Of a stretch of 64,000 bases of DNA, positions 10,106 to 48,327 are shown in pieces. Numbering within the stretch: position 1 is the stretch's first letter; the number at the start of each line of letters is the position of its first letter. The DNA is from Thermotoga petrophila RKU-1 (lineage in GTDB: Bacteria > Thermotogota > Thermotogae > Thermotogales > Thermotogaceae). The position numbers were made by a program, and so were the translations under genes. Below the pieces are notes generated by a model. It was not told the DNA's origin. It was given only the letters and a program-made list of their open reading frames with translations, and made no database searches. The stretch is from positions 1,736,001-1,800,000 of the forward strand of contig NC_009486.1 of assembly GCF_000016785.1 (NCBI RefSeq). The letters run 5' to 3'.

Positions 10106-10118
10106 AAGGAGGGATAGT

Positions 10119-10361: not shown

Positions 10362-10381
10362 AACAGAACTCTGTTTAAGAT

Positions 10382-10750: not shown

Positions 10751-10752
10751 AA

Positions 10753-11034
10753 ATGAAAAAAAAGAACAAGGGATATCATCTGACAGTTGCGAATACTCTT
10801 GTTTGTGAATCAAAAAAAGGCTATAAAATGATAAACTCAAAACTTGGGAAAATCAGACAGATTAACTTGAAAGATTTGTTCTAGAAAGATAGAGACTTTT
10901 ATTTAAAGTGGAGTACTGAAACAATAAAAGTGGTTAGCAGTGTATTATTAAAAAAAAGACATAAAGTGATCCCTGGACAAAATTCATTGTTCGATTTTGT
11001 GAGATTACCCTTTGATTCTGTTGACGAGAAGTGA
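10753..11034 (+). pseudogene. Interrupted small ORF ahead of brxP, not recognised
   Basis: A 93-codon frame from ATG 10753 to TGA 11032-11034, broken by one in-frame TAG at 10882-10884 (codon 44). The protein reads naturally on both sides of the stop: GKIRQINLKDLF, stop, KDRDFYLKW. That stretch faintly resembles the GKYKG...DPxYLKW element found after some exonuclease domains, but I do not assign a family. Codon use is AT-rich like the island. The promoter overlaps its start, leaving almost no leader, so it may be a decayed BREX accessory gene. Confidence 0.4.
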
Positions 11035-11086
11035 ATATTTAGTTTCAGTCTTAGTTCTTTCTCTTGATTTTTTATTCCTTCATGAG

Positions 11087-13324: not shown

Positions 13325-13554
13325 GAAGTAGGGATTTCACCGTATCGGAATTGTACGGCAAAGAATTCAAAGGAGGACCATATAAGTTATTTGGAATTTC
13401 AAAAGATAAATTAGAAAAAATTTTAAGGGGTCTTCAGGAAGATAAAGAGCAAATCTTAAGGGTAGATTTAATTGCCGACTTAGACAATATTTACTTGAGA
13501 GAGGACCTTTCATCTTTGGATATAGTAAGAATTGCAGAGGGGAAATTAAAATGA
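13282..13554 (+). CDS. C-terminal part of the BrxP DUF4007 domain in the -1 frame
   Basis: A 90-codon frame if begun at TTG 13282, but it is open further upstream and joins brxP at the A7 run. The residues (PLSVAYSLYKAAEHVG, FTVSELY, GGPYKLFGISKDKLEKILRG, then DLDNIYLREDLSSLD) are the conserved C-terminal half of DUF4007. It has no ribosome site of its own. The stop (13552-13554) overlaps the brxC ATG, as expected for an operon that once read through. Best read as the end of brxP and not a separate gene. Confidence 0.7.
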   Translation: MSVAYSLYKAAEHVGSRDFTVSELYGKEFKGGPYKLFGISKDKLEKILRGLQEDKEQILRVDLIADLDNIYLREDLSSLDIVRIAEGKLK

Positions 13555-16922: not shown

Positions 16923-19315
16923 TGAAAATAGAGAACTTTTATTCTCTTGAAAAATTATACGATAGAATAAAACAGGATAAAAATTCTAAAAGAATCTCTG
17001 ACAGGAGGTTTCCAATAAGGCTTATCTTCATTAATTCTTTCGAAGAATTACAAGAAATTATTAGATTTCTGAAGGATGATTGTGGTGCTGAAAGTAAAGA
17101 AATAACGGAACTTCTATCTAGCAAAGATCAATGGCTAACACCAAATGAAATAGTAAATTGGATAAAGGGAATATATAACAATGCTGTCGTAACCTCGCTC
17201 TCAGAATTTTTGAGATTTCAAAATAAAGAAAATTTTTATATAACTTTAAAAAAATTAACTGAAATCGAAACACAAAATAATATAAGAATTTATATACCAT
17301 TAGTTGGATTATGTGAAAGATTTAAACAAGAGTTCTGGACAAATTTTTACAGAAAGGAAGAATGGGCACCGATTTGGAAGTTAGAAAGCCATTCTCAAAA
17401 AATAATTATATATCAAATAAATTTTGAATTAAATTATGAAAATCTTTTTCTGCCAGAAAACTTTGAAATAGTACTTACCACTGAAGAATGGCTAAATGTT
17501 TGGAAAAAGGGAAACATGAAAGGTATTCTATCCTTGTCTAAATCTTTGTCATGCTTTTATAAAAATTTTCTCCCAGATCAAGTATTTGAATTGAGAGAGA
17601 TTTCAAACCAAAAAGAATTTCTTAAAGATATTTTTGAAATCAATGTTCCGATAGAGTTTAAAGATGATGAAAAGGAGTTTTGGAATGAACTCATAAAAGA
17701 AGCAGTTAGATATAATCAAAAAGGACTAACTATAGAGAATATATTTTTGAGTCATTTTAATCTTGGAAGCGCAGAAAAATTAACATCTGAAGAATTTCTT
17801 GATCGCTATTTAAGAACTAATGAACATTATGAAAGGTGGCTAATTAGAAATTTTTTGTTATCTTTAGGTAAGTTTAAATCTTCTTATTTATACAAATGTT
17901 TCGAAAGATTAGGGGAATTAAAAGAAAAGGATTTGATAGAAAAGTTATGGTTAGAAATATTTAACTTACCTTTCGAAACACTAACTGAAGATATTTTTTC
18001 CGAGAGAAGAGAATTTTTAAATTTCATACATAAGAAACTCAATATATCAGCTCAATTCATAGAAAGAAAACTCGATAATGCGCTTGATAACATAAAAAGT
18101 TATCCATTAAAGAAAAAACTCAAATATTTGACCAACATAACATTTATTGAAAGAAGATATATTATTTCCGAATTAAAAAACACTAATATTAATATTCAAG
18201 AAATTATTCCTGATCTAAAAAGAGTTTATCCAGAATTAGCATATTATCTGGATTGGGACTTAATAAAGCCCGATAATGAAGTGGATAATTGGATACTTGA
18301 ATACTTTAAAAAGTACAACTGTTCGAAAATAAGGCATACTAAATCTCAAAAAATAGAAGAATTAATTAGTAACAAAAACAAAGATAAGTCTACTTTTTCG
18401 AATTGGTATTATTCTTTGCCTAAAGCAGAAATAGCAAAAGATTTCAAATATGTGTGGATAGATGGATTGGGAGCTGAGTGGTTTCCGTTAATAGTTAATC
18501 TACTTAACAAATATGGCAAAGAGAACGGAAAAATTATAAAAAAGAAAATGCTTACACGAGTCAATTTGCCAAGCATTACAAAATGCAATAGATATGAATT
18601 TGAAAGAATTGAAGATTTAGATAATCATATACATAACCAAAAATCATATAATTATCCAGATGATTTAATCAAAGAAATTGAACTTATAGAAGAAATTGTG
18701 AAGAAAATTATGGAAATGCCGGACGATAGAATATGTATTGTTTCAGATCATGGATTCAGTTTTTTGTGTTTGAAGGATTTTGATAACTTCAAAAGATTCA
18801 ATTTTTCAAACGCCGAACATGAGGGAAGATACATGTGGATTGACAAGATAGATTATAAAGATGACGAATATTTTATTGTTTGGAATGTTGATGAAGGAAA
18901 TTGCCGGGATAGAAAAGTCCTTGTGGCATTGAAACATGTGTCATTAAATAACACTCCTTATAGAGAAGTCCATGGAGGTGCCACGCCTGAAGAAGTTTTG
19001 GTGCCTTATATTGTAATAGAAACTGAAAAAAATAAAGATGAAATTAAATATAAAATTGAACTTACTGATCCTGAGGTATGGATAACCAATCCTGTAGTTC
19101 AATTCAAAATATATCCACAACCTTCGTATATTCCTGAAGCTTTCTTCAATGAACAATTATTGAATATGTCGTACGAGAAAGAGAATGATATCTATAAAAT
19201 AGATCTAAAAGGTTTAAAAGCTGGGACATACACGATAATGTTGAAGATAGGGGATATGAACTATCAAATAAATGTAACTATCAGAGGAGGATTTAAAGAG
19301 AGGGATCTTTTATGA
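16922..19315 (+). CDS. pglZ: PglZ: alkaline-phosphatase-superfamily protein of BREX
   Basis: A 797-residue protein. The N-terminal 500 residues are a poorly conserved helical region. The PglZ domain follows, with metal-binding motifs WIDGLGAEW (about 512), CIVSDHGF (about 605) and HGGATPEEVLVPY (about 683), the alkaline phosphatase/phosphodiesterase fold. The C-terminal about 90 residues look like a beta-rich Ig-type domain. Start and stop overlap brxC and brxL, so translation is coupled. PglZ is the one component found in every BREX type; its exact reaction is not settled. Confidence 0.9.
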   Translation: MKIENFYSLEKLYDRIKQDKNSKRISDRRFPIRLIFINSFEELQEIIRFLKDDCGAESKEITELLSSKDQWLTPNEIVNWIKGIYNNAVVTSLSEFLRFQNKENFYITLKKLTEIETQNNIRIYIPLVGLCERFKQEFWTNFYRKEEWAPIWKLESHSQKIIIYQINFELNYENLFLPENFEIVLTTEEWLNVWKKGNMKGILSLSKSLSCFYKNFLPDQVFELREISNQKEFLKDIFEINVPIEFKDDEKEFWNELIKEAVRYNQKGLTIENIFLSHFNLGSAEKLTSEEFLDRYLRTNEHYERWLIRNFLLSLGKFKSSYLYKCFERLGELKEKDLIEKLWLEIFNLPFETLTEDIFSERREFLNFIHKKLNISAQFIERKLDNALDNIKSYPLKKKLKYLTNITFIERRYIISELKNTNINIQEIIPDLKRVYPELAYYLDWDLIKPDNEVDNWILEYFKKYNCSKIRHTKSQKIEELISNKNKDKSTFSNWYYSLPKAEIAKDFKYVWIDGLGAEWFPLIVNLLNKYGKENGKIIKKKMLTRVNLPSITKCNRYEFERIEDLDNHIHNQKSYNYPDDLIKEIELIEEIVKKIMEMPDDRICIVSDHGFSFLCLKDFDNFKRFNFSNAEHEGRYMWIDKIDYKDDEYFIVWNVDEGNCRDRKVLVALKHVSLNNTPYREVHGGATPEEVLVPYIVIETEKNKDEIKYKIELTDPEVWITNPVVQFKIYPQPSYIPEAFFNEQLLNMSYEKENDIYKIDLKGLKAGTYTIMLKIGDMNYQINVTIRGGFKERDLL

Positions 19316-20733
19316 ATGAGTTAGATGAAAAGATAAAGAAAATATTTTCAGAGGAATCTGTGTTTAAAAGTCCAAAAGAATATAGAATGTTTTCTGGATA
19401 TAATCTTCCATCTTTTGTTAAGGATTGGATATTAAGGAAGTTTACAGACGAATTTGGAAATTTGGATGTAGATGCTTTAAAACTTTTTTTGAATACCCAC
19501 ATTGCACATAAAGGAAGCAAAATAAAAGGGACTCTTTTAAATGACTTAAAAGAAGTTACATTGCTTGCGAGAATTATAGTGGAGCCAGATATAAAGTCAG
19601 GAATATTGAGATTCTCTATACCTGATATCGGTATAAAACTCGACGAAGGACGAATTCCCCCTCATGTTGCTAAGAAGTATCTGGAGTTGAAAGGAGGAGA
19701 AGTTTGGGGTGTCGTTAAATTAGCTTATATTCCACCCGAAGGAAAACAAAAAGGAACAATAGAAATAGTGGATTATAAACCATTTAAACCTTATGAAGTA
19801 GATGTAGAATATTTCAGAGAGAAACGAAAGGAATTTACTTTAGAAGAGTGGATAGATCTTTTAATACGTTCTATGGAATACAACCCCAATGGGTTCGAAT
19901 CACTTTCTCAAAAGTTATTATTTCTAGCCCGACTTCTCGTTTTTGTTGAACCAAACTTGAATATGATAGAATTGGCACCTAAAGGAACGGGCAAGTCTTA
20001 TACATTTAATAATTTAAGTAAATACGGTTGGGTTATAAGTGGCGGCACTGTTTCAAGGGCAAAGTTGCTTTACGATGTAGCTCGTTCGACTCCCGGTATA
20101 ATAACCCGCTATGATTTTGTAGTCTTAGATGAGATTGAGAGTATAACATTTACAGATCCAAGCGAATTACAGGGAGCTTTAAAAAATTATTTGGAATCAG
20201 GGAATTTTTCTGTGGCAAACTATAGAGGGGTTTCTTCTGCAGGTTTCATGTTATTGGGAAATATTCCACTAACAAAAGATAGAAAACCACTACATAGCAA
20301 ATACTTCGTTAATTTACCAAAATTCTTTCAAGATTCTGCTTTGCTAGACAGATTCCATGGTTTCATTGAAGGATGGAAATTACCTAGAATGCGAGAAGAT
20401 TTAAAGTTGAGAGGATACGCATTGAATGTTGAATATTTCTCTGAAATATTACATAAGCTAAGAACAACTCCAGATTTTACTAAGATAGTGGATTCTTTGT
20501 TAGATATACCTAAAAATGCAGATACGAGGGATACTAGAGCTATAGTAAAAATATGCACAGGATATTTAAAACTGATTTTCCCCCATGTACACGAGAGAGA
20601 TGACATTAGCAAAAATGAATTTGAAACGTTTTGTTTAAAACCAGCAATAAAAATGAGAAAAATCATTAAGAGCCAAATAAGTCTAATCGATAATGAGTTC
20701 AGTGATACTTTACCTGAAATTAAAATCAAATAA
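19312..20733 (+). CDS. brxL: BrxL: Lon-like AAA+ protein of BREX
   Basis: A 473-residue protein of the BrxL family. Walker A is APKGTGKSYTF near residue 224, followed by the characteristic GWVISGGTVSRAKLLYD; Walker B is FVVLDEIES near 275; a GNIPL stretch and an RFHGFIEGW box follow. The family forms DNA-binding hexamers related to Lon, but with no clear protease active site. The ATG overlaps the pglZ stop (ATGA). It is shorter than typical type 1 BrxL (about 680 residues), so the C-terminal Lon-protease-like part is reduced or absent. Last gene of the type 4 set. Confidence 0.9.
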   Translation: MNELDEKIKKIFSEESVFKSPKEYRMFSGYNLPSFVKDWILRKFTDEFGNLDVDALKLFLNTHIAHKGSKIKGTLLNDLKEVTLLARIIVEPDIKSGILRFSIPDIGIKLDEGRIPPHVAKKYLELKGGEVWGVVKLAYIPPEGKQKGTIEIVDYKPFKPYEVDVEYFREKRKEFTLEEWIDLLIRSMEYNPNGFESLSQKLLFLARLLVFVEPNLNMIELAPKGTGKSYTFNNLSKYGWVISGGTVSRAKLLYDVARSTPGIITRYDFVVLDEIESITFTDPSELQGALKNYLESGNFSVANYRGVSSAGFMLLGNIPLTKDRKPLHSKYFVNLPKFFQDSALLDRFHGFIEGWKLPRMREDLKLRGYALNVEYFSEILHKLRTTPDFTKIVDSLLDIPKNADTRDTRAIVKICTGYLKLIFPHVHERDDISKNEFETFCLKPAIKMRKIIKSQISLIDNEFSDTLPEIKIK

Positions 20734-33936: not shown

Positions 33937-34031
33937 GTGTCGTAAAATTGACATTTTACGACACAAGAAAATTGAACTCTTATGATTATACTCATGAGTA
34001 TAATACTCAATGGTATAATACTTCTAAGTAT
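33937..34031 (+). promoter_or_regulatory. Cluster of palindromic operators ahead of the second ATPase gene
   Basis: Three nested symmetric elements lie within 95 bp. A 12-bp perfect inverted repeat (GTGTCGTAAAAT 33937-33948, ATTTTACGACAC 33953-33964) has a 4-bp spacer. A 20-bp perfect palindrome covers 33985-34004, built on ATACTC/GAGTAT. A third inverted repeat is ATACTT/AAGTAT (34018-34031). TATAAT-like boxes lie between them (34001-34019). This looks like a tightly controlled promoter; the regulator is not identified. Confidence 0.65.
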
Positions 34032-34052
34032 ATAAATCCAGGAGGTAAGACC

Positions 34053-35423
34053 ATGAAATTCTACAACAGAAGAAAAGAACTTGACTTTTTTCAGAAGGTA
34101 AAAGGCATGGACAGAAAGTATTTTGTTGTGGTATTCGGAAGAAGACGTATCGGAAAAACCACATTGATAAGAAAAGCCTTTGAAGATACAAAGGCCTTTT
34201 ACTACTTTGTGGAGGTTAAGAAAGAAGAGACACTCTTGAAAGATCTGAGTTTTTCTTTCTCAAAGGCTGTGTACAGTAACTGGTACGATTTGTTTTCTGA
34301 ACTCTTCAACAGATACGAGTACATCGTGTTCGATGAGTTCCAGAATTTTCATAAGGTGAATCCGGATATTCTATACGCTCTTCAGCACGCATGGGACGAT
34401 AACAAAAACAAAACAAAGATGATTGTACTCGGCTCTTATGTGGGCTTGATGAAGAACATTTTCACGGATGAGAAGATGCCGTTGTTTGGCCGAGCAGACA
34501 GCATCATCAACATCAAAGAATTTCCTCTTGGTGAAACAGTTTCTATGTTAAAAGACTTTGGATACGATGTTCACGAGGCATTCCAGATATACGCAATGGT
34601 GGGAGGTGTTCCAAAGTATCTGTGGCTGTTCAAAGACAAAAGAGACATCAAGCAACTGATCTACGATGTCTTCATCGACGAATTTGCTCCTCTTAGAGAG
34701 GAGGCAAGGAACCTTCTGATATCGGAATTCGGCTCAGAACACAAGACGTACTTTTCTATACTGGAGGCAATAGCGGGAGGTATGAAATCACTGTCTGAGA
34801 TTTCCGATTCTTCCGGCATAGAAACGACGAAACTTTCCAAGTACTTGACCGAACTTTCAGAGATCTACGAGATACTGTCGAAAGAGCGCCCTTTGCTCTC
34901 CGAAAAGAAGAGAAACTACAAATACAGGATCAAAGATCATTACTACAACTTCTTCTTCAGAAACATTTACAGGAATTACTCCATCATGGAATACGCTCCA
35001 GAAAAAGCCCTTGAAATCGTCTGGAATAACTTCAACCAGTACATGGGTTTCCAGTTTGAGGAGATATGCAGACAGTTCCTTCTGGAAAATCCCGGCTTTT
35101 TTGGTTTTATACCGAAAGATGTTGGAAAGCACTGGGGGAGGGTTCCTCACAGAAAAAACGAGTCGTACGATATAGACCTTGTTGCGTACGATGATGAGAA
35201 CGTGTTGTTTGGAGAATGCAAGTGGTCTAACAAAAAAGTGGGAGAAGAAGAATATCGAAAACTCCTTCTGAGGAGCGAATATGTGAACACTAGAAAAAGA
35301 AGAAAGATCTACGCTCTTTTTTCCAGAAGTGGCTTTGAAGAAAATCTTCTAAAGTTGAAAAGCAAAAATCTCTTTCTCATCACACCGGAAGATATGATGA
35401 GGGTGTATGAAGTAGTAAAATAA
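34053..35423 (+). CDS. Archaeal-type AAA ATPase with C-terminal DUF234-like domain
   Basis: About 457 residues from ATG 34053 (GGAGGT 34041-34046). Walker A is FGRRRIGKTTLI (about 29-40) and Walker B-like is YIVFDEFQNF (about 90). The C-terminal 180 residues include a winged helix (SLSEISDSSGIETTKLSKYL) and a nuclease-like DUF234 region ending with DIDLVAYDDENVLFGECKW, a D...ExK arrangement like PD-(D/E)XK enzymes. It is 40 nt ahead of a HARE-HTH endonuclease-like gene; the same kind of pair occurs at the left edge of the window. Probably a mobile or defence-linked ATPase; the function is not established. Confidence 0.82.
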   Translation: MKFYNRRKELDFFQKVKGMDRKYFVVVFGRRRIGKTTLIRKAFEDTKAFYYFVEVKKEETLLKDLSFSFSKAVYSNWYDLFSELFNRYEYIVFDEFQNFHKVNPDILYALQHAWDDNKNKTKMIVLGSYVGLMKNIFTDEKMPLFGRADSIINIKEFPLGETVSMLKDFGYDVHEAFQIYAMVGGVPKYLWLFKDKRDIKQLIYDVFIDEFAPLREEARNLLISEFGSEHKTYFSILEAIAGGMKSLSEISDSSGIETTKLSKYLTELSEIYEILSKERPLLSEKKRNYKYRIKDHYYNFFFRNIYRNYSIMEYAPEKALEIVWNNFNQYMGFQFEEICRQFLLENPGFFGFIPKDVGKHWGRVPHRKNESYDIDLVAYDDENVLFGECKWSNKKVGEEEYRKLLLRSEYVNTRKRRKIYALFSRSGFEENLLKLKSKNLFLITPEDMMRVYEVVK

Positions 35424-37270: not shown

Positions 37271-38665
37271 TCATGAAGTGTACCTTATGTATATCGATTC
37301 CACTTTTATTGCTTCTTTCTCAAAATCCAGGAGATCACTTTCCGTGAAAACATCCTTTTCAACCTTGTCTACGAACATCACATATATTTTCGAAAATTCT
37401 TTCGATGTGGATCTTCTCAATATTCTACCCATTCTCTGTATCCATTGCCTTACGCTACTTGTACCAGCCACAATGATCCCTGTTTCTGCGGCCGGAACAT
37501 CAAATCCTTCATCCAGAGCCTTGCATGCCACAAGAACATTTATCCTTCCATCTTTGAATTCAGATATACTTACCAGTCTTTCTTTTACAGGCATTTTCGA
37601 ATGATATATCCCAGCGGCAAATCCTATCTTCTTCAGGTATTTGAAAATGTATTCGGCAATTTCAATTCTCTCGTGAAATATTAATACTCTTTCTTTGTCA
37701 AGTTTTTCCTCACTAAACAACCATTTAAGAGCGTACAATTTGGATTTTGAGGTGTGGATCACAGATTTCCTTTGATTCAAAAGAGCAATGTATCTTGTTA
37801 TAAGTTCATCTCCGTTTTTTTCGTGGATCATATTCAACCGCTTGATAAAATTGACATGAGAAGTTTCCTTTAACTCTGGATACTTGTATATCAAAGCCTT
37901 TGTGAGTTTGTTTATTTTTTCTGTTAAATCCTCATAAATAACTTCTTCTGATGGAGTAAGGGGAACTTTCAGTTTCACAATTTTATAGGGGGGTATTATT
38001 CCATCTTTCAAAGCATCGCTGTAAGTGTATGTGTAAATCACATTACCAAGATTTGGCACGAGTTTTTCTTCAAAGCCGTAGTCTCCATACCTTTCCGGAG
38101 TGGCAGAAAGTCCCAGTGTGTATGAAAAGGGTATTTCGAATATTCTGGAATTCTCTTTGCTTCCATACCTGTGGCATTCATCGGCAATCAGAAATAAGTC
38201 TTCGTGTTTGAAAAATCTTTCGTAATGTTCTTTCAGATACCTTCTTGCCGAGTTAATGACATATATCAGTATGTTTCTATCTTCAACATTCTCTTTTTCT
38301 TTTCCATAAAAAACACCTATGTTTTCTCTTGGTATGTGAAGTTTATCCATTATCTCGATGAGCCATTGATCGAGAAGAACGGTGGTAGGAACAACTATTA
38401 TTACTTTTAAACCACCCTCACTGTATGCTTCGGAATTAAATAGATCCGATATCAAAGAAAGAGCGAAGATCGTTTTCCCTGCACCAGTAACAACTTTAAC
38501 AATGCCTTTCCCACCATTTTTCCACCATGCTTTTTTTGCTTCTTTTTGCCATCTGTAGAGTTCAACGGAAAGCTTCCAGGGAGCATCAACGAAGTCATCA
38601 GAGAAGAATTCATCTACGACTCTTTTACATACTTCGCAATCAAACCTATCGCAGGTTTTTTTCAA
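37271..38665 (-). CDS. SF2 DECH-box helicase of the DUF499/PglZ/DUF1156 module
   Basis: 464 residues. N-terminal cysteines (Cys5, Cys10, Cys13) may bind a metal. Helicase motifs are visible: motif I VVTGAGKTIFA (59-69), Ia VVPTTVLLDQW, II ADECHRYG (161-168), III LGLSATPERYG (about 186), IV-V LVACKALDEGFDVP, and VI QWIQRMGRILRR (about 415). This is the COG1061-type, like XPB and the helicases of restriction and DISARM-like systems. It is the last gene of the minus-strand operon and overlaps the upstream small gene by 20 nt. Presumed DNA translocase or unwinding subunit of a defence system. Confidence 0.88.
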   Translation of the reverse strand: MKKTCDRFDCEVCKRVVDEFFSDDFVDAPWKLSVELYRWQKEAKKAWWKNGGKGIVKVVTGAGKTIFALSLISDLFNSEAYSEGGLKVIIVVPTTVLLDQWLIEIMDKLHIPRENIGVFYGKEKENVEDRNILIYVINSARRYLKEHYERFFKHEDLFLIADECHRYGSKENSRIFEIPFSYTLGLSATPERYGDYGFEEKLVPNLGNVIYTYTYSDALKDGIIPPYKIVKLKVPLTPSEEVIYEDLTEKINKLTKALIYKYPELKETSHVNFIKRLNMIHEKNGDELITRYIALLNQRKSVIHTSKSKLYALKWLFSEEKLDKERVLIFHERIEIAEYIFKYLKKIGFAAGIYHSKMPVKERLVSISEFKDGRINVLVACKALDEGFDVPAAETGIIVAGTSSVRQWIQRMGRILRRSTSKEFSKIYVMFVDKVEKDVFTESDLLDFEKEAIKVESIYIRYTS

Positions 38666-38864
38666 AATTCTTTATTGATGATATTTTTTTGAGAGTTTTT
38701 TCTAAATCCGGAATGATTTCTTCAGGAATGTTTCCTTTCTTCGTTAACTCCCATCCAGCTTTTTCCAGTATACAGGCTATTCTGTCTAATCCAAACGTTC
38801 GGGCTCTCCTTGCCAGGTGATGAAAATGCCAGCCTTCCCACCCATATAGTTTCATTTTGAACAT
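38646..38864 (-). CDS. Small conserved-looking protein of the defence operon, unknown
   Basis: 72 residues (MFKMKLYGWEGWHFHHLARR, then FGLDRIACILEKAGWEL). Aromatic and basic N-terminus, helical C-terminus, no recognised domain. It overlaps the helicase start by 20 nt and follows the next upstream gene by 1 nt, so it is firmly inside the operon and probably a real subunit or adaptor. No function assigned. Confidence 0.6.
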   Translation of the reverse strand: MFKMKLYGWEGWHFHHLARRARTFGLDRIACILEKAGWELTKKGNIPEEIIPDLEKTLKKISSIKNFEKNLR

Positions 38865-38865
38865 C

Positions 38866-39273
38866 TCACGATTGTAAGTTCAGTGGAGCAATAAAATGTT
38901 TAGAATCCACCTGCTTCACTCTACCAAATATGGGATATAATAAAAATGATGCATCTTTATAGTTTATTATTGGCCTCTCAAAACTCTCTACAATTTCAAT
39001 TTTCCCTTCAACAACGATCTGGATTATGTAATTCCCTCTCACAAGAAAGTTTGCAGCGTCTTGAAGGAGGTTTCTTATTTCTCTCGAAACTTTTTCAGGT
39101 TCCTCCGAGTAATAAAGCAAGCTCTCTATACCAAAGACAGCAAGGTTAAGTGGAAGTTCTTCTTCTCTGTAAACCTGTCTTAAAAACTCAACTATGCTCA
39201 TTCTGTCTTTAAAAATCTGATCTGAATATTCTTTCTTTTCTATGATATTAAATCCTATATCCATGTTTGCCAT
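38866..39273 (-). CDS. Unknown 135-residue protein of the defence operon
   Basis: Begins MANMDIGFNIIEKKEYSD; mixed alpha/beta with a helical central part (AVFGIESLLYYSEEPEKVSREI). GGGGGTG lies upstream of the ATG. No family recognised. It occupies the place taken by DUF3780-like small genes in related DUF499-DUF1156-helicase loci, but it is shorter and I see no sequence signature to confirm that. The gap to the methylase is only 23 nt. Confidence 0.6.
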   Translation of the reverse strand: MANMDIGFNIIEKKEYSDQIFKDRMSIVEFLRQVYREEELPLNLAVFGIESLLYYSEEPEKVSREIRNLLQDAANFLVRGNYIIQIVVEGKIEIVESFERPIINYKDASFLLYPIFGRVKQVDSKHFIAPLNLQS

Positions 39274-39296
39274 TACTCACACCCCCAACTGCGTTT

Positions 39297-42047
39297 CTAC
39301 CCAAGCCATCTGCTTTTGATAAATGTTATTAAGTCTTTGTAGGTTCTATCGTTTTCAATTTCATGGAGATATTCGAGGGTTCTGATGACTGCCTGTGAAG
39401 ACCACAATGTTTTCTCATCCTTGATTAGAGAACTCTCAAACTTTAAGATTGTCCCCTCTTTCCAGAGGTGATAGAGGTAATGAACTCTATCAATAGCAGA
39501 AAGATCTCTTTTTGATTCTATGATCTTTGCTCTCTCTTTTGGTGTCAAAATTAAAAGCTGGCTTCCTTCTTTTTCTACGAGTCCTGATTCCAGAACTTCT
39601 TTCATTGGAATGTTTCTCATCTTTAGGGCTTTGTTTAGGGAATCATAGGATATGCTCGTTTTTCCAGCCATGTAGAATAGATAGACGGCTGTTAAGGTGT
39701 CAGTCTCTGATGCAATCTGATTAAAACGGGTGTGCATGAGTTGAGAATCGACTATTTCTCTTATTGAAGATAGAGCTTCGTCAATGGAGACTCTCTTATC
39801 GTTCTTATAAACCTCCGGATAATATTTGGAGTAGAGTTCAAGGCACTTTCCTATGGTTATGACAAATATGTCCTCCTGTGACAAGTTGCGTTTCCTTGTT
39901 TCAAGCCTTTTTATCTCATCCTGAACTTTGAAGTAAATTTCATCTTCTATCTGCGACCAGTATCTTTTTTCTGGTTTTTCTTTTCTTTTTCTGCAAACAA
40001 CAACCATGTCATAGCGAACATTTGCTTTTTGGAAAATGTGTGGACTGACATCTGATTCCGATTGAACAGGATAAATGGCTGAAATGTAAAAGCCCGCATT
40101 CAGAACGGATTGCAAAACTGCTCCCCAAGCCTTCTCTTCCTGATGGTGGAATGTGAAAACCATCAAGCCGTCGTCTTTGAGTTTTCTGTTTGCCTCCTTG
40201 AAAACAGCAGTTAAGCCTTCAATAAAATCCTTTTCATCTTTGCCCTGAACTTTGTTTACTATAATCTCCGTTGCGTTTGGCACATGCTCACTTCTGAAGT
40301 ATTCGTATTTGTCTTTCAATGCCAAGCGAAGCCATGCATAGTAAAATTCGGAAAGCTCGGAATACATAACATTGCCGTAATAAGGTGGGTCTGTTATCAC
40401 TGCATCGACGGATTTATCTGGAATATCAAGATAAGAGGAATCCCCACATGTTATCATCGCATTTGCATCACTATCGTTAAAAATATTACCGAGTTTCCCA
40501 ATTATCTGCATTTTCATGGGTTTTTCTAATGTTTTGCCGTTTTGGATGTATTTTTCGAAGGGTTTTATGTTGAATTGTTTTCCTTCAATTATTTTATCGA
40601 TTTCATTAATAAAGACTCCTCTTCCGGATCGGGTTCCCCATACATTGTTTTCTACAGGATTTAAAGGAGGATGAAATGCATGTCTTCCAAACATGTCTCT
40701 TAGATGATTCTTGGTTCTTGCATATTCACAAAGCATATTATGGTAGTTTAGTGCTTCCGAAAACGTAATTACCAAAAACTCTTTTACATTCTCATCTACA
40801 TCCAACTCTAAAATTGACTTCAAAAGTCTCCCAAGGCTCAAAAGCTGTCTTTCATTGAACATGTCTTTCCAGTATTTGTAGCCATGGTTTTCAATAAGTC
40901 TCGGATAAGTCTCTTGACCTTTTGGAATTTCAGTATCCGGTATGTACTTCCCAAGCCACTCCTTCTCTACACTCTTAAACTCTTCCTTTGCTCTCTCAAA
41001 AAGGACAAAATCAAACTCATCTGCCTGCTTGTAATCTTTTCTTCCACAGTGCGGGCAGTAATACTCAACTGCATAAAGTCTTTCTTCTGGCTTTCCTGTC
41101 TTCTTAATCGCTTCAACGATCACGCTTTTTTGCCCACAATTTGGGTTTGTACAAATATAATATTTCCCTTCTACATTTCCATCCTTATCAGGATTAAACT
41201 TCTTTCCACACCTTGGACACTCTGTATCTTTTTCATAATTATTGACAACAAAAATATTTTCACACTCTGGACAAATCACATGATAACCCTTCCCGTCTCT
41301 TGTTTTCGCAAGCATGTAGCCTCTGAAAAGCGGGATCTTTGTTCCACAGGCAAGGCAGGGAACTTCCTTTATCCAGAAGTAATACATTGTGTCAGCAAAT
41401 ATGTTTTTCTTAAAGCCAATCTTTGACCCATCTTCAAACCAGTACTGCCCATATACTTCCTTTGGATCATTCGCAACCTTTAACTTCTCAACCACTTCTT
41501 TTAAAACATCTTCAGGTTCTCTACTGTTGATCTTTGCGTATTCTTCCAAACAATGTGGGCATATCGTCTTATAGTATTTTTTTATTTCATCAGCAACCTG
41601 ACTTTCTAATTTCTTAAATGTTTCCTCTAACTTTTCAATATCCACCGGTTCTACTATCTTTTTTACTAGAAACCATGCAACTGGATTCAAATCCTGGGCA
41701 ACAACTTTACAGCCTGTTCTTAAAGCTTCAACAACAGTAGTTCCACCACCCATCATGGGATCAAGCACAACCTTTCCACCAAAATCAACATCTTTCAGAT
41801 ACAAAAGCCACGGATTCTCAAGTTCTTCTTTCGTTATTTTTCGCCATTTGCCCGTTCTCTCGTCCAAGACTTTGGTATTTTCATCTACAAGTGTGTAAAG
41901 AACAATGGTTCTAAATACACTTCCAAGCCTCCTTGCCCACCATTTGTGAATGAAAAGAACTGGTCTGAACTTTTCTTTTGCGTGAGCTTCCTTTTCTGCA
42001 ATCTCGTTCACATGTTCTATAGGAAAATCTTTTTCAATAGGTCTCAT
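39297..42047 (-). CDS. DUF1156-type adenine-specific DNA methyltransferase
   Basis: 916 residues. The N-terminus has the DUF1156 signature (FRPVLFIHKWWARRLGSVFR) and an SAM-binding motif VVLDPMMGGGTTVVEAL (about 93). A central insert carries several zinc-ribbon cysteine pairs (CPHCLEEYA, CLACGTK, CPECENIF, CPRCGKK, CPHCGRK). The catalytic DPPYYGNVMYSE motif is near residue 550, which marks N6-adenine or N4-cytosine methylation. DUF1156 proteins are found in defence islands with DUF499 ATPases and helicases. It would mark self DNA while other subunits attack unmarked DNA (inference). ATG 42047 overlaps the stop of the DUF3800-like gene. Confidence 0.9.
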   Translation of the reverse strand: MRPIEKDFPIEHVNEIAEKEAHAKEKFRPVLFIHKWWARRLGSVFRTIVLYTLVDENTKVLDERTGKWRKITKEELENPWLLYLKDVDFGGKVVLDPMMGGGTTVVEALRTGCKVVAQDLNPVAWFLVKKIVEPVDIEKLEETFKKLESQVADEIKKYYKTICPHCLEEYAKINSREPEDVLKEVVEKLKVANDPKEVYGQYWFEDGSKIGFKKNIFADTMYYFWIKEVPCLACGTKIPLFRGYMLAKTRDGKGYHVICPECENIFVVNNYEKDTECPRCGKKFNPDKDGNVEGKYYICTNPNCGQKSVIVEAIKKTGKPEERLYAVEYYCPHCGRKDYKQADEFDFVLFERAKEEFKSVEKEWLGKYIPDTEIPKGQETYPRLIENHGYKYWKDMFNERQLLSLGRLLKSILELDVDENVKEFLVITFSEALNYHNMLCEYARTKNHLRDMFGRHAFHPPLNPVENNVWGTRSGRGVFINEIDKIIEGKQFNIKPFEKYIQNGKTLEKPMKMQIIGKLGNIFNDSDANAMITCGDSSYLDIPDKSVDAVITDPPYYGNVMYSELSEFYYAWLRLALKDKYEYFRSEHVPNATEIIVNKVQGKDEKDFIEGLTAVFKEANRKLKDDGLMVFTFHHQEEKAWGAVLQSVLNAGFYISAIYPVQSESDVSPHIFQKANVRYDMVVVCRKRKEKPEKRYWSQIEDEIYFKVQDEIKRLETRKRNLSQEDIFVITIGKCLELYSKYYPEVYKNDKRVSIDEALSSIREIVDSQLMHTRFNQIASETDTLTAVYLFYMAGKTSISYDSLNKALKMRNIPMKEVLESGLVEKEGSQLLILTPKERAKIIESKRDLSAIDRVHYLYHLWKEGTILKFESSLIKDEKTLWSSQAVIRTLEYLHEIENDRTYKDLITFIKSRWLG

Positions 42048-43060
42048 TTCATTCCCTCCAAATCAAACAAAGTCATGCCATTCAAATCATCATTTATAAC
42101 TATTTCCTTGGTCATAATATCTTCAAATTGCCATTCTCCATTTGCAATGCAGGCTTCGGAGATTGCGAAGGACTTATAATGACCGCTATGAACGAAATTT
42201 TTTCCTCTCTTTCTTTTGTCTATCATCTCCTTTACTGGATAGGCAATTATGCTTTTCTTATCTATATCTGGAGAAAACTTTTGCCATTTTATTCCTTTAA
42301 GGCAGGATTGAATGACACTTCCCAAGAGCATATCTGCAAGTTGAAGCATATTTGCATAAACATAATTTTCAGTGTCCTTAGAGTATTTCCTATGATCTGA
42401 TGCTAAATGGAGAATCTCTGCATCTAACGGTATCTCCACATATTTTTTTAAATTTCCAGAAAGACTTTGCTCGATTAACCTCCAAACAATTCTATCTTCA
42501 CTCAACTTTCTATGATACGGTTTTCCGTCGGTTATTATTTTCAAAATTTTAACCTTATTGTCCTCGTCGTATAAATAGTGCACAGCCCCTTTAAGAAGCA
42601 TACGAAGTATGGTTTCATTAAATCGCACTATTTTTTCTTTTCTACATTCGCCACCATAGAGTGCTAAAATATCAGAAGTTGGAGTTGGGAAGAAAATAAC
42701 AGCAATTTTACAACGAAGTGGCTTTTCAAAGATATTTGAACCTTTTGAACGTAAAGCGTCAACACCAAATATGACTAATTGTTTTCCTGCTTCGTCAATT
42801 TTTGTCCATTTATTTCCAGATATTTCACTAAAGTGGAACTTGTGGAATGCTGAGAATTTTCTCCGAAGTTCCTCTATTTTTGAAAATAACATTTTCAATG
42901 GGTTTAATTCAACTTCTTCTTCTCCGAAAAGTGAACTTGAATAAAAAAGACGAAGCTTTTCAGGAACAAATAATAAAATATGTCCACTCAATTTCTTTTC
43001 ACCGGCCCTATTTGTCTCGTCGTGAAATACCAAAACATCACTTTCTGTTCTCATCTTCAT
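42044..43060 (-). CDS. DUF3800-like (RNase H fold) protein
   Basis: 338 residues from ATG 43060, which follows GGGGGGAT by 4-5 nt; a longer frame to 43111 crosses remnant sequence. The opening VFHDETN resembles the FxDESG strand of DUF3800, a central IITDGKPYHRK follows, and ANMLQLADMLLGSVIQ resembles the QxADxxxG helix. DUF3800 is an RNase H-fold family with conserved acidic residues, common in defence and mobile elements and possibly nucleolytic. It lies between the broken MNT/HEPN pair and the methylase. Assignment is by motif only. Confidence 0.65.
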   Translation of the reverse strand: MKMRTESDVLVFHDETNRAGEKKLSGHILLFVPEKLRLFYSSSLFGEEEVELNPLKMLFSKIEELRRKFSAFHKFHFSEISGNKWTKIDEAGKQLVIFGVDALRSKGSNIFEKPLRCKIAVIFFPTPTSDILALYGGECRKEKIVRFNETILRMLLKGAVHYLYDEDNKVKILKIITDGKPYHRKLSEDRIVWRLIEQSLSGNLKKYVEIPLDAEILHLASDHRKYSKDTENYVYANMLQLADMLLGSVIQSCLKGIKWQKFSPDIDKKSIIAYPVKEMIDKRKRGKNFVHSGHYKSFAISEACIANGEWQFEDIMTKEIVINDDLNGMTLFDLEGMK

Positions 43061-43079
43061 TTCAATCCCCCCAAGTTTT

Positions 43080-43187
43080 TCAACACCAACCAGAAATTCC
43101 AAGAACTCCACCGCATTTGAAAAATGAAATGCTCTCCAACTCTTTTGCTCTTCTCCAGTATCTGACGATTTTTTCCCTCTCGTTCAT
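43080..43187 (-). pseudogene. HEPN-domain remnant
   Basis: A 35-codon frame starting with an ATG that overlaps the nucleotidyltransferase stop (ATGA). MNEREKIVRYWRRAKELESI is typical of the first helix of HEPN proteins that pair with MNT nucleotidyltransferases. The frame closes after 35 codons. A HEPN-like continuation (HFSNAVEFLEFLVGVEKLGG) sits in another frame that runs into the DUF3800-like gene, so the rest has been deleted or frameshifted. Confidence 0.5.
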
Positions 43188-43493
43188 ACAACTACACCTT
43201 CTTTTTCGACGTTGATGATGAACGGAAAGACTTCTCTGTATCTATCCCATTCCTTCCTCGAATAAATGCTTACATCCAGAACAACATCGTATTTGAGGTT
43301 GAGTTCATAAGCAATGTCGCAAATAGATTCCCTCACTTTAATATCAACGTCTCTGTCCAGTATCACAAGGATATCAATATCCGATTCCCCTTCTGTCTCT
43401 TGCACAAGAACCGAATAGTATAACCTCCATCTTGCCAAATTTTTCAGAAAACTTTTCCTTGAATTCTGCTACTATCTGGAGTATTTCCATCAT
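43184..43493 (-). pseudogene. MNT-type nucleotidyltransferase with a frameshift
   Basis: The first half (MMEILQIVAEFKEKFSEKFG, then VILFGSCARD) starts at 43493, overlapping the PglZ stop. The second half (ETEGESDIDILVILDRDV onward) is in another frame and ends at 43184. The GSxAR...SDID active site is thus split by an indel near 43395-43410. Antitoxin MNT proteins AMPylate their HEPN toxin partner. Here both partners are broken, so the pair is inactive unless the frame is restored. Confidence 0.75.
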
Positions 43494-44386
43494 TTCACCA
43501 CTTCCAAAACAGGTACAAAGCACTCCATCAAACTCAGGCCGCCGTGAATATAAATACTGTATCTTCCAGGAACAGGCCACGAATAACGAGACTTTGCCAA
43601 ATAATATCCATTAAACTCCTTGACGTATCCCACCTTTATCAAATCTTCAACGTCGTTACCATCTATTTTCACGTATCTTTTACTACCAAAAATTTGCTGG
43701 AATTTTCTCTTTGCTTTGTCTGGGACAGGAAAAACAAAACCTGCTTCCGTCCTTATATATCCATGATCGGATGTGATTACTATCCTCTCGGCTTTGATTT
43801 TTGATAAAATTTCGAGGACTATCTTCTCCACAACTTTATACATTTCTTCAAGCGATGAAATTACGGTGTGACCCGCTTGGATCTTATCTAACATTACATC
43901 CGGGAACTGTGACCAGATGTATTTTTCACGGCCTGTAAGCTTTATGTTCTCAGGATTATTTATCTGATTGAAATCGTTCATGGATTTCCTTATCTTTTCT
44001 CTGAAAAATTCAGTATCTGATGGCACGGCAGAAAAGTTAAACCCATGCTTTACATTGTACCCTTCTTTCTCTAGACGTTTAGACAACAATGCACTTTCCC
44101 TTATACTCATTCCATCCATAATTACAACGACTGAATCTGGATATAACTGGAAAACATCCTTTTCTTTCAGGCATGCTTTTGCAAGCAAATCATAAAATTC
44201 CCAGTATGATTTCAAAATAAACTCTTCAAAACTTCTTTCTTTTTCTTCACCTCTGCTATAATAATTTCCAATCTCATGTTCTTCCTCAGCCACATTTGAC
44301 CATAGCTCTAAAAGTTTTTTGCCAACTGTTATGACTGGATTGGTATCTTTTATAAGATCCATTACAAAATCAGTTTTAACTTTCAT
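43490..44386 (-). CDS. Compact PglZ-domain protein
   Basis: 298 residues, much shorter than the BREX PglZ at 16922. The alkaline-phosphatase-superfamily motifs are present: VVVIMDGMSIRES (Asp91, Ser94), RIVITSDHGY (Ser206-Asp-His-Gly-Tyr) and HGGLSLMECFVPVL near 281. It is essentially a PglZ catalytic domain alone. It overlaps the DUF499 ATPase stop by 11 nt, so the two are translated together and likely act as a pair, as BrxC and PglZ do. Confidence 0.85.
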   Translation of the reverse strand: MKVKTDFVMDLIKDTNPVITVGKKLLELWSNVAEEEHEIGNYYSRGEEKERSFEEFILKSYWEFYDLLAKACLKEKDVFQLYPDSVVVIMDGMSIRESALLSKRLEKEGYNVKHGFNFSAVPSDTEFFREKIRKSMNDFNQINNPENIKLTGREKYIWSQFPDVMLDKIQAGHTVISSLEEMYKVVEKIVLEILSKIKAERIVITSDHGYIRTEAGFVFPVPDKAKRKFQQIFGSKRYVKIDGNDVEDLIKVGYVKEFNGYYLAKSRYSWPVPGRYSIYIHGGLSLMECFVPVLEVVK

Positions 44387-46820
44387 CTTTTCCCCTCCAA
44401 AGTATTATTTTTGCCTTAATTTCACAATCTTCCTGAAAGGGAAGTTGTTTGACGAATTTCATAATTTCTTGTTTGGAAAGCTTCTGCTTAAACCTGTATT
44501 CCACAAGGATCTCCTCAAATTCATCTTTCTCGCTTGTTCTAGCTTCGATCTGGCTGAGGATAACCCTGGGAGAATTTCCAGTAAGTGATAGTTCATCCTT
44601 CTCTTTTCTTTCGACAATAACCACATCAGTTTTATCATCATTTTCATTCTTGTCATCTCCCGTGATTTCTTCAACATTTTCCTCTTCATAAGTTTCGGAT
44701 TCTTCCGCAACTTGGGGTATATACTTTGGATGAATAACAACAAAGGATGGTTCTATACTCCTTGGAGATTCATCGATATACCACTTTCCTCTTTCTCCTT
44801 GGATTATCACCCTTTTATCTCTATGCAGATCTCTTATAGCTGTGTAAATTGTCTCGTCATCCAGAATAAAGGGATACCTTCTATATTTTTTGAAATCATC
44901 TATCAATTCTTCTATTCTTATACCGTATGGCTTGTTCTGTGTTAATTCAACGATAAAATCACAGATAACTCCCGGATCACCTTTAGCTTTTTCCCTTATA
45001 GCATTTATTTCAGCACTTACATTTATTAGCCTGCAATCTAACTCCCCTTCGTGTTCAACCCATTTAACAATATAACCATAATAAGTTCTTATTTTGTCTG
45101 CAATGCCCTTTTCTTCGTCCTGAATGATTTTCTTTAATTTTAATTTTTCTCCCTCATCTTTCACCTGGTTCATTAAATTCTCGGCAGCTTTCAATCTTTT
45201 GGCCTTCTCCAAAATTTCAAATGAGAATATTGTATTTACCACAGGTAGTACAAGAATGTAAGTATTCTGCCATGTTTTCCCTTTATAAAACTCACTCAGT
45301 TTAGCTTTTAATGTATCATTCACACCCCAAGATTCTGGTGATACAACGATCTTTAATTTGTTGTGATCGGGTATTTCATCAAAACCAAATATAAAAACCC
45401 TATTTTCGAAAACATCCTTTTTCACTATTTCAACTATTCTCTCTTTGACATCCTCTTCTGAAAGCTTGCTCTTTTCCTTCTCAAGCAATGCATAAATGTT
45501 GAGATCGTGTTTGAATAAGTAAACATCATTTTCCCTGTGAAGATAGTAGGGTTTTCCGTAGATATTTTCAAGATTCACAAGAATGGAATTTAAAGTATGC
45601 CCTTCAGTTGGACTAAATATCGATAGCAGGATATCTGATTTTGTTGCCCCATGGGTTTTCTCATTCAATGTAAAAATCAATACCGTTTTCAATATCTCTT
45701 TAGCAAACTCGATATCTTTTACTCTTTCCTTGTCAAACTCATATTTTTCCATTAATTTCAGATCTATGCCTCTAAAAGCGTTTTCATCAATATCACTGAG
45801 TAGGATTAAGTCTTTCCTTTCGTAATTATCTTTTACAGCATCGGCGAGAACGTTTAACATGCCTCTTACGTTCTGCCTTTCTGACGCGGCTTCATATATC
45901 TGGAAGAGAGTATCCAAGAGTAAAGGATGGAATGGATATGTTCTGATCATCCTCCGTTTGTAATTTTGAATATCTTCAAGTTTTATTGGAGAGGAAGAAT
46001 ATGCATTAATATATTTCTCAACCACACTTTCTATTTTATCCCTATCTGAATTTTCTATATTTTCGAAAAGTCGATGCAGTACTACTTTCTCTCTATCTTC
46101 AATTGGGCTTACATCTATTCTTATTGGTTTTGTTCTGTTAAAAATTTTCTTTAATCCCTCCTTTTCTTCCAGGAACGTTATAAAAACAAATAACCTCTTT
46201 GTTGGATCTGCCGCTACTTCCAACAGATGCTCTAAAAACGTCTCATTCTGTTCAATAAGATGTGCCTGCTTTTCTGGATCAAAAGCACCATACCAGTTTT
46301 CTATTTCATCAATGAATATTGCGACGGTATCATCACCGATTGCTTTCTCAATTTGATCGGTTGTTGGAAATCTTTTGACTTCGTTGAGTATGTCTTCCTT
46401 TCCTAAAAGTTTAAAAATAGGTTCCCATAAGTGGTCAACATCGTATCTTCTCGTGGAAACTATGACTGAGCGGGATTTCTCAGGTAATTCAAAATCCAAC
46501 TTCCATTCTTTTCCCCAATTTCTTGCTAGCGATGGGTTGTTGAATAAGTGGTAAAGAGTTATCAAAGTATGAGATTTTCCCGAACCATAAGGACCTACAA
46601 GTAAAAAACCTCCTTGAAAGGATTTTCCTGTTACCTTCTCCTTTATCATCTCAAGAATAGTTTTTATTGCTGAAGATGGATAAGTGATTTCCAGGAATTC
46701 TTTAGGATTGTTTTCAAGACGTTCTTCTTTTGTATCTACCTTGTGGGTCTGTATTACTCCTTGAAAAGTTCCCTCTAAAACATCTTTCCTCGGCTTTAAG
46801 ATGTCTTTTATCCTGTACAT
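44376..46820 (-). CDS. DUF499-type P-loop ATPase
   Basis: 814 residues. Walker A is VGPYGSGKSHTLI (75-87) and Walker B is VAIFIDEIENWYG near 170. A long helical region and an acidic, low-complexity segment (about residues 700-735) precede a C-terminal domain ending in KQLPFQEDCEIKAKIILW. It is recognised as DUF499-like and related in style to BrxC and PglY. It is first in the minus-strand defence operon with GGGGGTGAAAAG before the ATG. Expected to power DNA loading or translocation for the PglZ and methylase subunits (inference). Confidence 0.85.
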   Translation of the reverse strand: MYRIKDILKPRKDVLEGTFQGVIQTHKVDTKEERLENNPKEFLEITYPSSAIKTILEMIKEKVTGKSFQGGFLLVGPYGSGKSHTLITLYHLFNNPSLARNWGKEWKLDFELPEKSRSVIVSTRRYDVDHLWEPIFKLLGKEDILNEVKRFPTTDQIEKAIGDDTVAIFIDEIENWYGAFDPEKQAHLIEQNETFLEHLLEVAADPTKRLFVFITFLEEKEGLKKIFNRTKPIRIDVSPIEDREKVVLHRLFENIENSDRDKIESVVEKYINAYSSSPIKLEDIQNYKRRMIRTYPFHPLLLDTLFQIYEAASERQNVRGMLNVLADAVKDNYERKDLILLSDIDENAFRGIDLKLMEKYEFDKERVKDIEFAKEILKTVLIFTLNEKTHGATKSDILLSIFSPTEGHTLNSILVNLENIYGKPYYLHRENDVYLFKHDLNIYALLEKEKSKLSEEDVKERIVEIVKKDVFENRVFIFGFDEIPDHNKLKIVVSPESWGVNDTLKAKLSEFYKGKTWQNTYILVLPVVNTIFSFEILEKAKRLKAAENLMNQVKDEGEKLKLKKIIQDEEKGIADKIRTYYGYIVKWVEHEGELDCRLINVSAEINAIREKAKGDPGVICDFIVELTQNKPYGIRIEELIDDFKKYRRYPFILDDETIYTAIRDLHRDKRVIIQGERGKWYIDESPRSIEPSFVVIHPKYIPQVAEESETYEEENVEEITGDDKNENDDKTDVVIVERKEKDELSLTGNSPRVILSQIEARTSEKDEFEEILVEYRFKQKLSKQEIMKFVKQLPFQEDCEIKAKIILWRGKDES

Positions 46821-46986: not shown

Positions 46987-48285
46987 TTATTTCCAGTCCA
47001 GGAGCCTTTTTTCTCCCTCGAGTTTTTTTATGTCGGTGATGTCCTGAACTACTTCGAGTGTGCCCATGTAGTTTCCGTCCTCGTCCAGAACCGGGAAGTA
47101 TCTTATGTGGATTTTTCTTTCTCCCATGTTGATCCAGAACTCTGCAGGGTTTTTTCTTCCTTCTTTGAAGGCTTTTAGAATCTTGTTCACGATATGAACG
47201 CTCCTTGGTGGGTGACAGAACTGCACCGGTCTTCCGAGGACAGTGGGTGCCCTGTGGAATATTCTGTGGCCTCCTGAGAAGAACCGAACTCTGTCATGTT
47301 TGTCCACAAAGGTGACATCGATTGGCAGTGTCTTGAAAATTGCGTTCAACTCCTCCATGGAAAGGTATCCGCTTTCCAGTTTCAGATCATTTTCTCGAAC
47401 AAGTGAATACTCAGTGTCAGGTCTGAGTGCTCCTACAACCCTTTTGATCTCTTCTGGGAGCTTTTCGTACGTTTCGGGAGGAACGGTTGGATCTATCTGG
47501 TGTGGGAGGAGCGGTTCTGCAGAAGTTTCCCATTCTTCCACCACTTCCACCTTGTAGTATCCTATGTCCTTTTCAAACATCTTTATGGCCTTCCATTCAC
47601 CTTCGGAGAGAAGAACCTTCAGAGTCGGATAGAGAATATTGTTTTCTCTGAAGACCATATCTGAGAGCATCCTTGAGAGTTCGAGGGCTTCTTTTTTCAG
47701 TCGTTCATCGTCCTCTTCTTTTTTCAGGAGGTTGACCAGGAGTTTTATTTTCAATCTCACCTCATCGTGCTTTGACCAAAGAACGGTGGGAACTGCGGTG
47801 ATTCCCCTTCTTTCGATGTATGGGAATATAAGCATCTCTTCTCTTGTGTAGTGCGTGTATCCTATTCTGGAAAGTTCAGACACGTGCTGGACGAGTTTTT
47901 CGTAGAAGTTTCTTCTTCGGGGATCTTCATTCTGGAGGGAAAACGTGCTAGAAGCCAGCAAACCCAGAGCCTCTGCGTCTTTGAGTATCTGTTTGTTCTC
48001 CTCATAAAGAGTCCTCAGAGGGTGACCCTCTGGGAGGTTTTCTATTTCTCTGCCAGCCTCTGAAACGGCTCCTCTGAAGAACTCAACATGAAGATCGCAC
48101 ATCTTGATGATGTCTTTCACATCGATTTCACCTTCTCTGAGAAGTTCCTGTTCTATAACGGGAATTTCAAAAGGTGACAACCTGGAAAGCAACTCACCAA
48201 ACTGTTTCTTCAAAGATTCTATATCCTCTCCTTTGTGAAGCCTTTTGAGTATGTCCTTGAAGATTTCCACCTTTTCTTTCTCCAT
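46987..48285 (-). CDS. DUF438 / hemerythrin-like / PAS sensor protein (copy 2)
   Basis: 432 residues from ATG 48285 (GGGGAGTGAG upstream). The domain order is identical to copy 1 at 7244: DUF438, hemerythrin-like (THYTREE, SKHDE), PAS (VDKHDRVRFFSGG, FCHPPRSVH). Most residues are the same over the full length. It lies on the opposite strand and is divergent from the second macroglobulin gene. Two near-identical copies in 40 kb imply duplication or repeated acquisition and possible recombination. Confidence 0.85.
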   Translation of the reverse strand: MEKEKVEIFKDILKRLHKGEDIESLKKQFGELLSRLSPFEIPVIEQELLREGEIDVKDIIKMCDLHVEFFRGAVSEAGREIENLPEGHPLRTLYEENKQILKDAEALGLLASSTFSLQNEDPRRRNFYEKLVQHVSELSRIGYTHYTREEMLIFPYIERRGITAVPTVLWSKHDEVRLKIKLLVNLLKKEEDDERLKKEALELSRMLSDMVFRENNILYPTLKVLLSEGEWKAIKMFEKDIGYYKVEVVEEWETSAEPLLPHQIDPTVPPETYEKLPEEIKRVVGALRPDTEYSLVRENDLKLESGYLSMEELNAIFKTLPIDVTFVDKHDRVRFFSGGHRIFHRAPTVLGRPVQFCHPPRSVHIVNKILKAFKEGRKNPAEFWINMGERKIHIRYFPVLDEDGNYMGTLEVVQDITDIKKLEGEKRLLDWK

Positions 48286-48327
48286 ACCACTCACTCCCCT
48301 CAACTATAGTTAGGTCATCCTTATTAG

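Follow-up and report, generated by a model that had tools for sequence, protein, structure and literature searches.

A stretch of 64,000 nucleotides of Thermotoga petrophila RKU-1 (NC_009486.1, positions 1,736,001 to 1,800,000; hereafter the window) carries at positions 37271-46820, on the minus strand, a run of genes that all point in a single direction with neighbours that overlap or stand short gaps apart. This operon is likely to be a Type-3 BREX-related (BR) restriction-like system of a thermophile sub-clade, with a cargo slot between the genes for PglZ and the methylase. Read from 46820 down to 37271, the genes encode a DUF499-type ATPase, PglZ, a broken MNT, a broken HEPN, a DUF3800-like protein, a DUF1156 methylase, a 135-residue protein (p135) and a frameshifted helicase (Table 1). 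An original prediction, made from the letters of the window, had recognised the one-strand run and within it the DUF499 ATPase, stand-alone PglZ, DUF1156 methylase and SF2 helicase, all of which were recovered with Pfam and PADLOC, and its view of a defence operon combining methylase, ATPase-PglZ pair and helicase, with kinship to Hma and BREX, agrees with the sequence comparisons. It had also called the system incompletely described, which no longer holds, as the operon matches, except for its helicase type, the Type-3 BR class set out in a recent paper (PMC12839542). Of its two small unrecognised proteins the 72-residue one is the N-terminus of the helicase and the 135-residue one a conserved part of the core, and it had missed the HEPN-MNT pair that lies between PglZ and the DUF3800-like gene.

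Table 1. Genes of the operon and other features of the window
Position (strand)	Feature	Size	Role or state	Matches
44376..46820 (-)	DUF499-type AAA+ ATPase	814 aa	core; putative BrxC-like scaffold/motor	PADLOC HmaC 1.1e-24, DUF499 4.5e-12
43490..44386 (-)	stand-alone single-domain PglZ	298 aa	core; putative nuclease	Pfam PglZ 1.3e-6
43187..43495 (-)	MNT nucleotidyltransferase (antitoxin type)		cargo gene 1; pseudogene by 5-nt deletion	
about 43079..43190 (-)	HEPN gene remnant		cargo gene 2; large internal deletions	DNA alignment with intact G005 HEPN
42044..43060 (-)	DUF3800-like protein	338 aa from ATG 43060	cargo gene 3	Pfam DUF3800 0.0021
39297..42047 (-)	DUF1156 N6-adenine DNA methyltransferase	916 aa	core	PADLOC HmaB 4.2e-42, Pfam N6_N4_Mtase 7e-14, DUF1156 1e-5
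38866..39273 (-)	small protein p135	135 aa	core; candidate iSTAND (BrxB/BrxF-like)	
38646..38864 (-)	helicase N-terminal part	72 aa	severed by +1 base in A7 at about 38660	
37271..38665 (-)	SF2 helicase body	464 aa	PbeA/XPB-like, without HKD, TUDOR or REase domain	
33948-35423 (+)	DUF234/ATPase_2 gene		past helicase end, opposite strand	PDC-S27
11153-20733 (+)	Type-4 BREX (BrxP, BrxC, PglZ, BrxL)		complete	PADLOC E-values near zero
7244-8545 (+)	hemerythrin/DUF438/PAS gene		inverted relative to second copy	
46987-48303 (-)	hemerythrin/DUF438/PAS gene		second copy	

Core genes and their conservation

The backbone of DUF499, PglZ, methylase and p135 is common to about 30 collapsed loci from haloarchaea, methanogens, Methanophagales, Desulfofervidaceae, KSB1, Aerophobetes, Chloroflexota, WOR-3 and Enterobacteria, with the order found in haloarchaeal plasmids, 18 genome loci and further loci from genome surveys. 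The check on gene order outside this strain that the original prediction had proposed thus finds the same backbone in bacteria and archaea of many phyla, and since the order is kept over phyla a chance assembly of the operon is ruled out. The extra genome surveys gave few additional loci, in about 1-3% of genomes, and a single-protein scan of viral contigs gave no match. The G+C content of the operon stretch is 35-38%, against 43-50% outside, thus the operon was probably acquired. All core genes have a dN/dS of 0.06-0.11 relative to Desulfofervidaceae, a rough ratio with dS above 1, the values being about 0.07 for the DUF499 ATPase, 0.08 for the methylase and 0.09 for the helicase body.

The ATPase has no match to the Pfam model for DUF499. 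In a tree of DUF499 sequences it falls within a seven-row thermophile clade (100/100) inside a PglZ-associated set, and that set stands apart from six Type-1 BR loci of Thermotogales, again with 100/100 support; Type-2 sequences were left out of this tree, in which long branches make the deeper forks unsure. The pglZ gene overlaps that of the ATPase by 11 nt, and its product aligns to only the C-terminal half of the BREX PglZ models of PADLOC, with profile matches to the solved structures of PglZ (9nv3, 1.7e-7) and PorX (7pv7, 2e-6). Residues D91, D163, D207-H208 and H281, which form a putative metal site, are invariant in 13 relatives. The PglZ protein of Type I BREX is itself reported to be a metal-dependent nuclease that binds BrxB (PMC12205998), and with the putative metal-site residues kept in the window the earlier view that the operon has no nuclease except possibly the DUF3800-like protein is doubtful. 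The methylase is 43% identical to haloarchaeal plasmid versions and 86% identical to that of Desulfofervidaceae, and its alignment shows a cysteine-rich insert.

Both the place and the sequence of the small protein p135 are conserved from bacteria to archaea (20-85% identical, with 79-85% in close relatives and 34-39% in haloarchaea), and it follows the methylase in almost all loci long enough to show it, with L066 as the one possible exception. A homologue holds the same place after the methylase in two loci with the SNF2-type helicase of published Type-3 BR, L115 (7e-10) and L117 (5e-11), therefore p135 is probably the iSTAND gene. Its sequence has no match in the PDB, and an AlphaFold2 model (pLDDT 87, pTM 0.83) has an alpha/beta fold for which Foldseek returned weak, non-significant matches, mostly to P-loop NTPases (RecA/RAD51, KaiC, AAA proteins), which might fit an eroded P-loop fold. 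The haloarchaeal loci (L054-L058, L068, L069, L072) have no helicase beside p132, a Dam-type methylase follows there, and an AAA/MoxR ATPase and another protein are convergent. Within L109 (G139) a HerA/DUF87 ATPase, at 12682-13866, comes straight after the p135 homologue in the place of the helicase.

The 72-residue open reading frame (ORF) and the helicase are a single ORF of 526-531 aa in G053, Desulfofervidaceae, S5B7 and KSB1 (L047, L062, L063, L065), so that a small antitoxin or accessory gene, which was considered for the shorter ORF, is rejected. The frameshift site, GAAAAAAACC, has seven bases in the window against six in relatives; the window sequence at this point is TTTTGAAAAAAACCTGC, with relatives one base shorter, and programmed frameshifting at the A7 run is not favoured as relatives have no such run. 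The helicase matches the PADLOC model of PbeA at 1.1e-80, against 3e-9 for BrxHI/HII, a full-length orthologue matches PbeA at 2e-80, and profile matches to XPB structures reach 5.5e-33. No nuclease domain was found in the full-length orthologues.

It is quite possible that the system in the window is decaying and no longer functional, as it has three lesions relative to its relatives, namely the helicase frameshift, a frameshift in MNT and deletions in HEPN, and the same site in the congeneric G005 holds remnants only, with a Type-1 BR there instead. However, DUF499, PglZ, methylase and p135 are intact, the helicase body still has the low dN/dS given above, and a homopolymer difference of one base may come from a sequencing error, or re-initiation may allow the cell to tolerate it. 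Left at the syntenic site in G005 are the last part of PglZ (95% identical), MNT (133 aa) and HEPN (130 aa, Pfam 2.6e-26), both intact, and the first part of the DUF3800-like gene. Beside these Type-3 remnants, on the other strand, is the Type-1 BR operon (L045) of helicase-nuclease, methylase and DUF499, and here one BR type is replaced by another within a genus.

The junction between PglZ and the methylase

Junction gaps were measured in 31 collapsed loci, with 800 bp or more taken as an insertion. Between PglZ and the methylase 8 of 29 loci have an insert, of 884-7512 bp, whilst none is present between DUF499 and PglZ (0/28, usually a short overlap) or between the methylase and p135 (0/23), and two of 11 loci have one between p135 and the helicase. 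Fisher's test gives p 1.5e-4 for the PglZ-methylase junction against the two flanking junctions (0/51) and p 1.4e-3 against all three others, both approximate because of partial relatedness among the loci. HEPN, Schlafen and OLD/TOPRIM modules are among the auxiliary nucleases already reported inside BREX/BR core loci (Rakesh and Krishnan, PMC12839542); the new point suggested here is positional, with the PglZ-methylase junction a candidate in-operon cargo slot. No description of a fixed cargo position, or of whole systems such as Hachiman and SIR2-HerA within it, was found in the literature, that paper being covered by its main-text parts.

The contents of the slot are diverse. MNT, HEPN and a DUF3800-like gene are found in the window, MNT and HEPN with a DUF3800 fragment in L074, and a DUF3800 protein in L075 (Chloroflexota). 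L062 carries Ppl (1e-57), SLFN_AlbA_2 (4e-26) and a complete Gabija (GajA 5e-104, GajB 1e-154), L097 carries Hachiman (HamA 8e-22, HamB 1e-131) with SLFN_AlbA_2, L065 a split HD protein with a DarG-like wHTH protein, L115 a Fic protein (SoFic 2e-34), and a Klebsiella plasmid (L126) SIR2 (1e-87) with HerA (2e-225). A ninth case comes from the actinomycetote G105, where PglZ-MNT, HEPN and Cmr1 end one contig, and a Cmr4-like RAMP, Cmr5 (4e-35), Cmr3 (1e-84) and the methylase are at the beginning of another; this points to a Cmr CRISPR module in the slot, joined across the contig gap, with the Cas10 gene of the module absent from the assembly. A Cmr2 contig of G105 (C429) was rejected as its source, as it carries a separate Cas10/Csm-like locus.

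Sister loci vary in cargo while their cores are 75-86% identical. Gabija is present in the Desulfofervidaceae slot and absent from that of S5B7, and SIR2-HerA is present in the Klebsiella slot and absent from those of Aminobacter and Ensifer (PglZ 74-77% identical). The cargo is always in the orientation of the operon, and the same stop/start overlap occurs at junctions of several loci, whichever gene comes after PglZ. The SIR2-HerA pair of Klebsiella also stands alone in E. coli chromosomes (75% nucleotide identity), and this cargo is therefore autonomous.

In the window two frames of the MNT gene match Pfam NTP_transf_2 and PADLOC PDC-S09. HEPN and MNT lie side by side, both broken in the window and both intact in G005 and L074. 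A Methanophagales archaeon has MNT (52% identical) and HEPN (59%) between PglZ and the methylase, and in a metagenome-assembled genome of Actinomycetota HEPN is intact (54% identical) and MNT is in frame with PglZ. As the divergence of the pair (51-59%) is about equal to that of PglZ (51-58%), HEPN-MNT is suggested to be an old resident of the operon. The DUF3800-like protein had been described as having an RNase H fold; there is a DUF3800 match, under the Pfam cut-off (19.2 vs 21 bits), and the fold is unproven, with a structure model at pLDDT 31. Remnants of this gene are N-terminal in G005 and C-terminal in L074, and homology to the DUF3800 protein of L075 is unsupported, with no BLAST similarity. 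Judged from sequence comparison, neither the DUF3800-like gene nor HEPN-MNT belongs to the core, both being exchangeable cargo.

Defence genes cluster anyway, and elsewhere in the window, close to the operon, are the Type-4 BREX and an Mrr-type gene, so the genes in the slot may be ordinary defence-island neighbours, functionally unconnected with the core and inserted by chance at a site that is in no way special. This is conceivable, if doubtful, and fits the 21 of 29 slots without a large insertion as well as the inserts between p135 and the helicase. Chance neighbours are not what would be expected, however, in a gene run unbroken on both sides of one junction, with cargo always oriented with the operon and often joined by stop/start overlaps, with zero inserts of at least 800 bp at the two neighbouring junctions (the p value above, with kinship of loci not fully corrected), and with HEPN-MNT staying in the slot at a divergence like that of the core. 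Internal cargo also seems to occur in a Type-1 BR operon, L050 (G009) at 6332-11072, where by eye an AlbA-like gene lies between helicase and methylase, and an MNT-like and a small gene between methylase and DUF499.

Comparison with known systems

Type-3 BR, reported in 569 taxa, comprises a DUF499 ATPase, a DUF1156 N6-methylase, a stand-alone PglZ, a nuclease-less helicase and, in 82% of taxa, iSTAND (Rakesh & Krishnan, NAR, January 2026, PMC12839542), with a helicase of BrxHII domain order (TUDOR, SNF2, inactive REase, alpha+beta). The window has a DUF499 ATPase of the Type-3 clade, the DUF1156 N6-methylase, a separate single-domain PglZ that is predicted to be active by its conserved residues, a nuclease-less helicase and a small protein in the iSTAND position. 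It differs in that the helicase, about 530 aa at full length (526-531 aa), is compact and PbeA/XPB-like rather than BrxHII-like SNF2, and for this reason the operon is a variant and not canonical Type-3 BR. It further differs in its recurrent PglZ/methylase cargo position, which the main-text parts of that paper do not describe.

Several points weigh against reading the operon as a Type-3 BR system with a cargo slot. The published helicase is SNF2/BrxHII-like and that of the window is not, it is also frameshifted, which may leave the copy crippled if the extra A is genuine and not an error of sequencing, and the iSTAND assignment of p135 comes without a significant fold match. Cargo is optional, given the 21 loci that lack a large insertion, and other junctions at times hold it, with p135-helicase inserts in L063 and L115 and, in L066, an MNT-like gene that follows the methylase.

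That the operon is instead Type-1 BR (Hma) or DISARM-like, two kinds that the original prediction had found similar, is highly improbable and membership of either is rejected, for although the PADLOC run it proposed gave HmaB and HmaC as best models for methylase and ATPase (and PbeA for the helicase), the operon includes p135 and a PglZ that stands alone, its helicase is not fused to an REase as in Hma, and the DUF499 tree sets the window apart from Thermotogales Type-1 BR with full support. Hma has the methylase and ATPase families in common with the window, but is without PglZ or p135, has a helicase fused to a PD-(D/E)XK nuclease, and its DUF499 is in another clade. The body of the window helicase is of the PbeA family (1e-80), PbeA being part of PbeABCD, the CxC-ABC ATPase/DndE system, and having an N-terminal HKD nuclease (PMC10853773), whereas the HKD nuclease, PbeC and PbeD are absent from the window system. 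BREX types 1-6 share the logic of a BrxC-like ATPase, PglZ and N6-methylase, but the window operon has DUF499 instead of BrxC/DUF6079 (PADLOC BrxC 2.9e-6 vs HmaC 1.1e-24) and a single-domain rather than multi-domain PglZ, with no BrxL or BrxA gene seen.

Genomic setting and possible mode of action

The Type-4 BREX lies 17 kb from the operon, thus one island combines a BREX of the phosphorothioate type with a BR system of the methylation type. The two hemerythrin/DUF438/PAS genes are 86% identical and bracket about 38 kb that includes both defence systems; the other Thermotoga genomes searched have a single or a split copy, except for one that has none. In G053, which is of the same class but another family, a DUF234/ATPase_2 gene (L047, 506-1819, plus strand) is likewise seen by eye beyond the helicase end on the opposite strand, and this gene may travel with the Type-3 BR operon.

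The core most likely works like BREX, marking self DNA at N6 of adenine, scanning by means of the ATPase and restricting through helicase and PglZ. With the iSTAND-like p135 as helper, the DUF499 ATPase would assemble with the methylase and PglZ and scan DNA, with the methylase marking its own sites in host DNA with N6-methyladenine. On meeting unmarked sites the XPB/PbeA-like helicase would translocate or unwind and PglZ would cut. The slot between PglZ and methylase would accept extra defence or toxin modules, each complete in itself, oriented like the operon and often translationally coupled, that probably add backup layers to this putative antiviral activity and act when the core is evaded. 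In the window the slot formerly contained a working HEPN-MNT pair, now broken, and contains the gene for the DUF3800-like protein. An earlier example of a restriction system with a genetically linked backup toxin is PrrC/EcoprrI, in which a type I restriction-modification enzyme silences the tRNase linked to it (PMC2610378), although that is one specific toxin with known control and the slot has many unrelated modules. A stronger and rather unlikely form of the idea is that the slot is a dedicated plug-in position, in which complete unrelated systems (Gabija, Hachiman, SIR2-HerA, Cmr, HEPN-MNT) would be under core control as guards, firing when the core is inhibited, in a manner like PrrC but interchangeable.

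This analysis gives a place to a thermophile system that had seemed unknown, establishes what its small parts are and reveals a swap of helicase within a published class. A fixed cargo position in a restriction-like operon would offer a simple route to unknown defence modules, by reading what lies between PglZ and DUF1156, and opens to test whether the layers of immunity are wired together or simply share a location. The mesophilic version on Klebsiella plasmids, with SIR2-HerA in the slot, makes the system amenable to such tests in laboratory E. coli.

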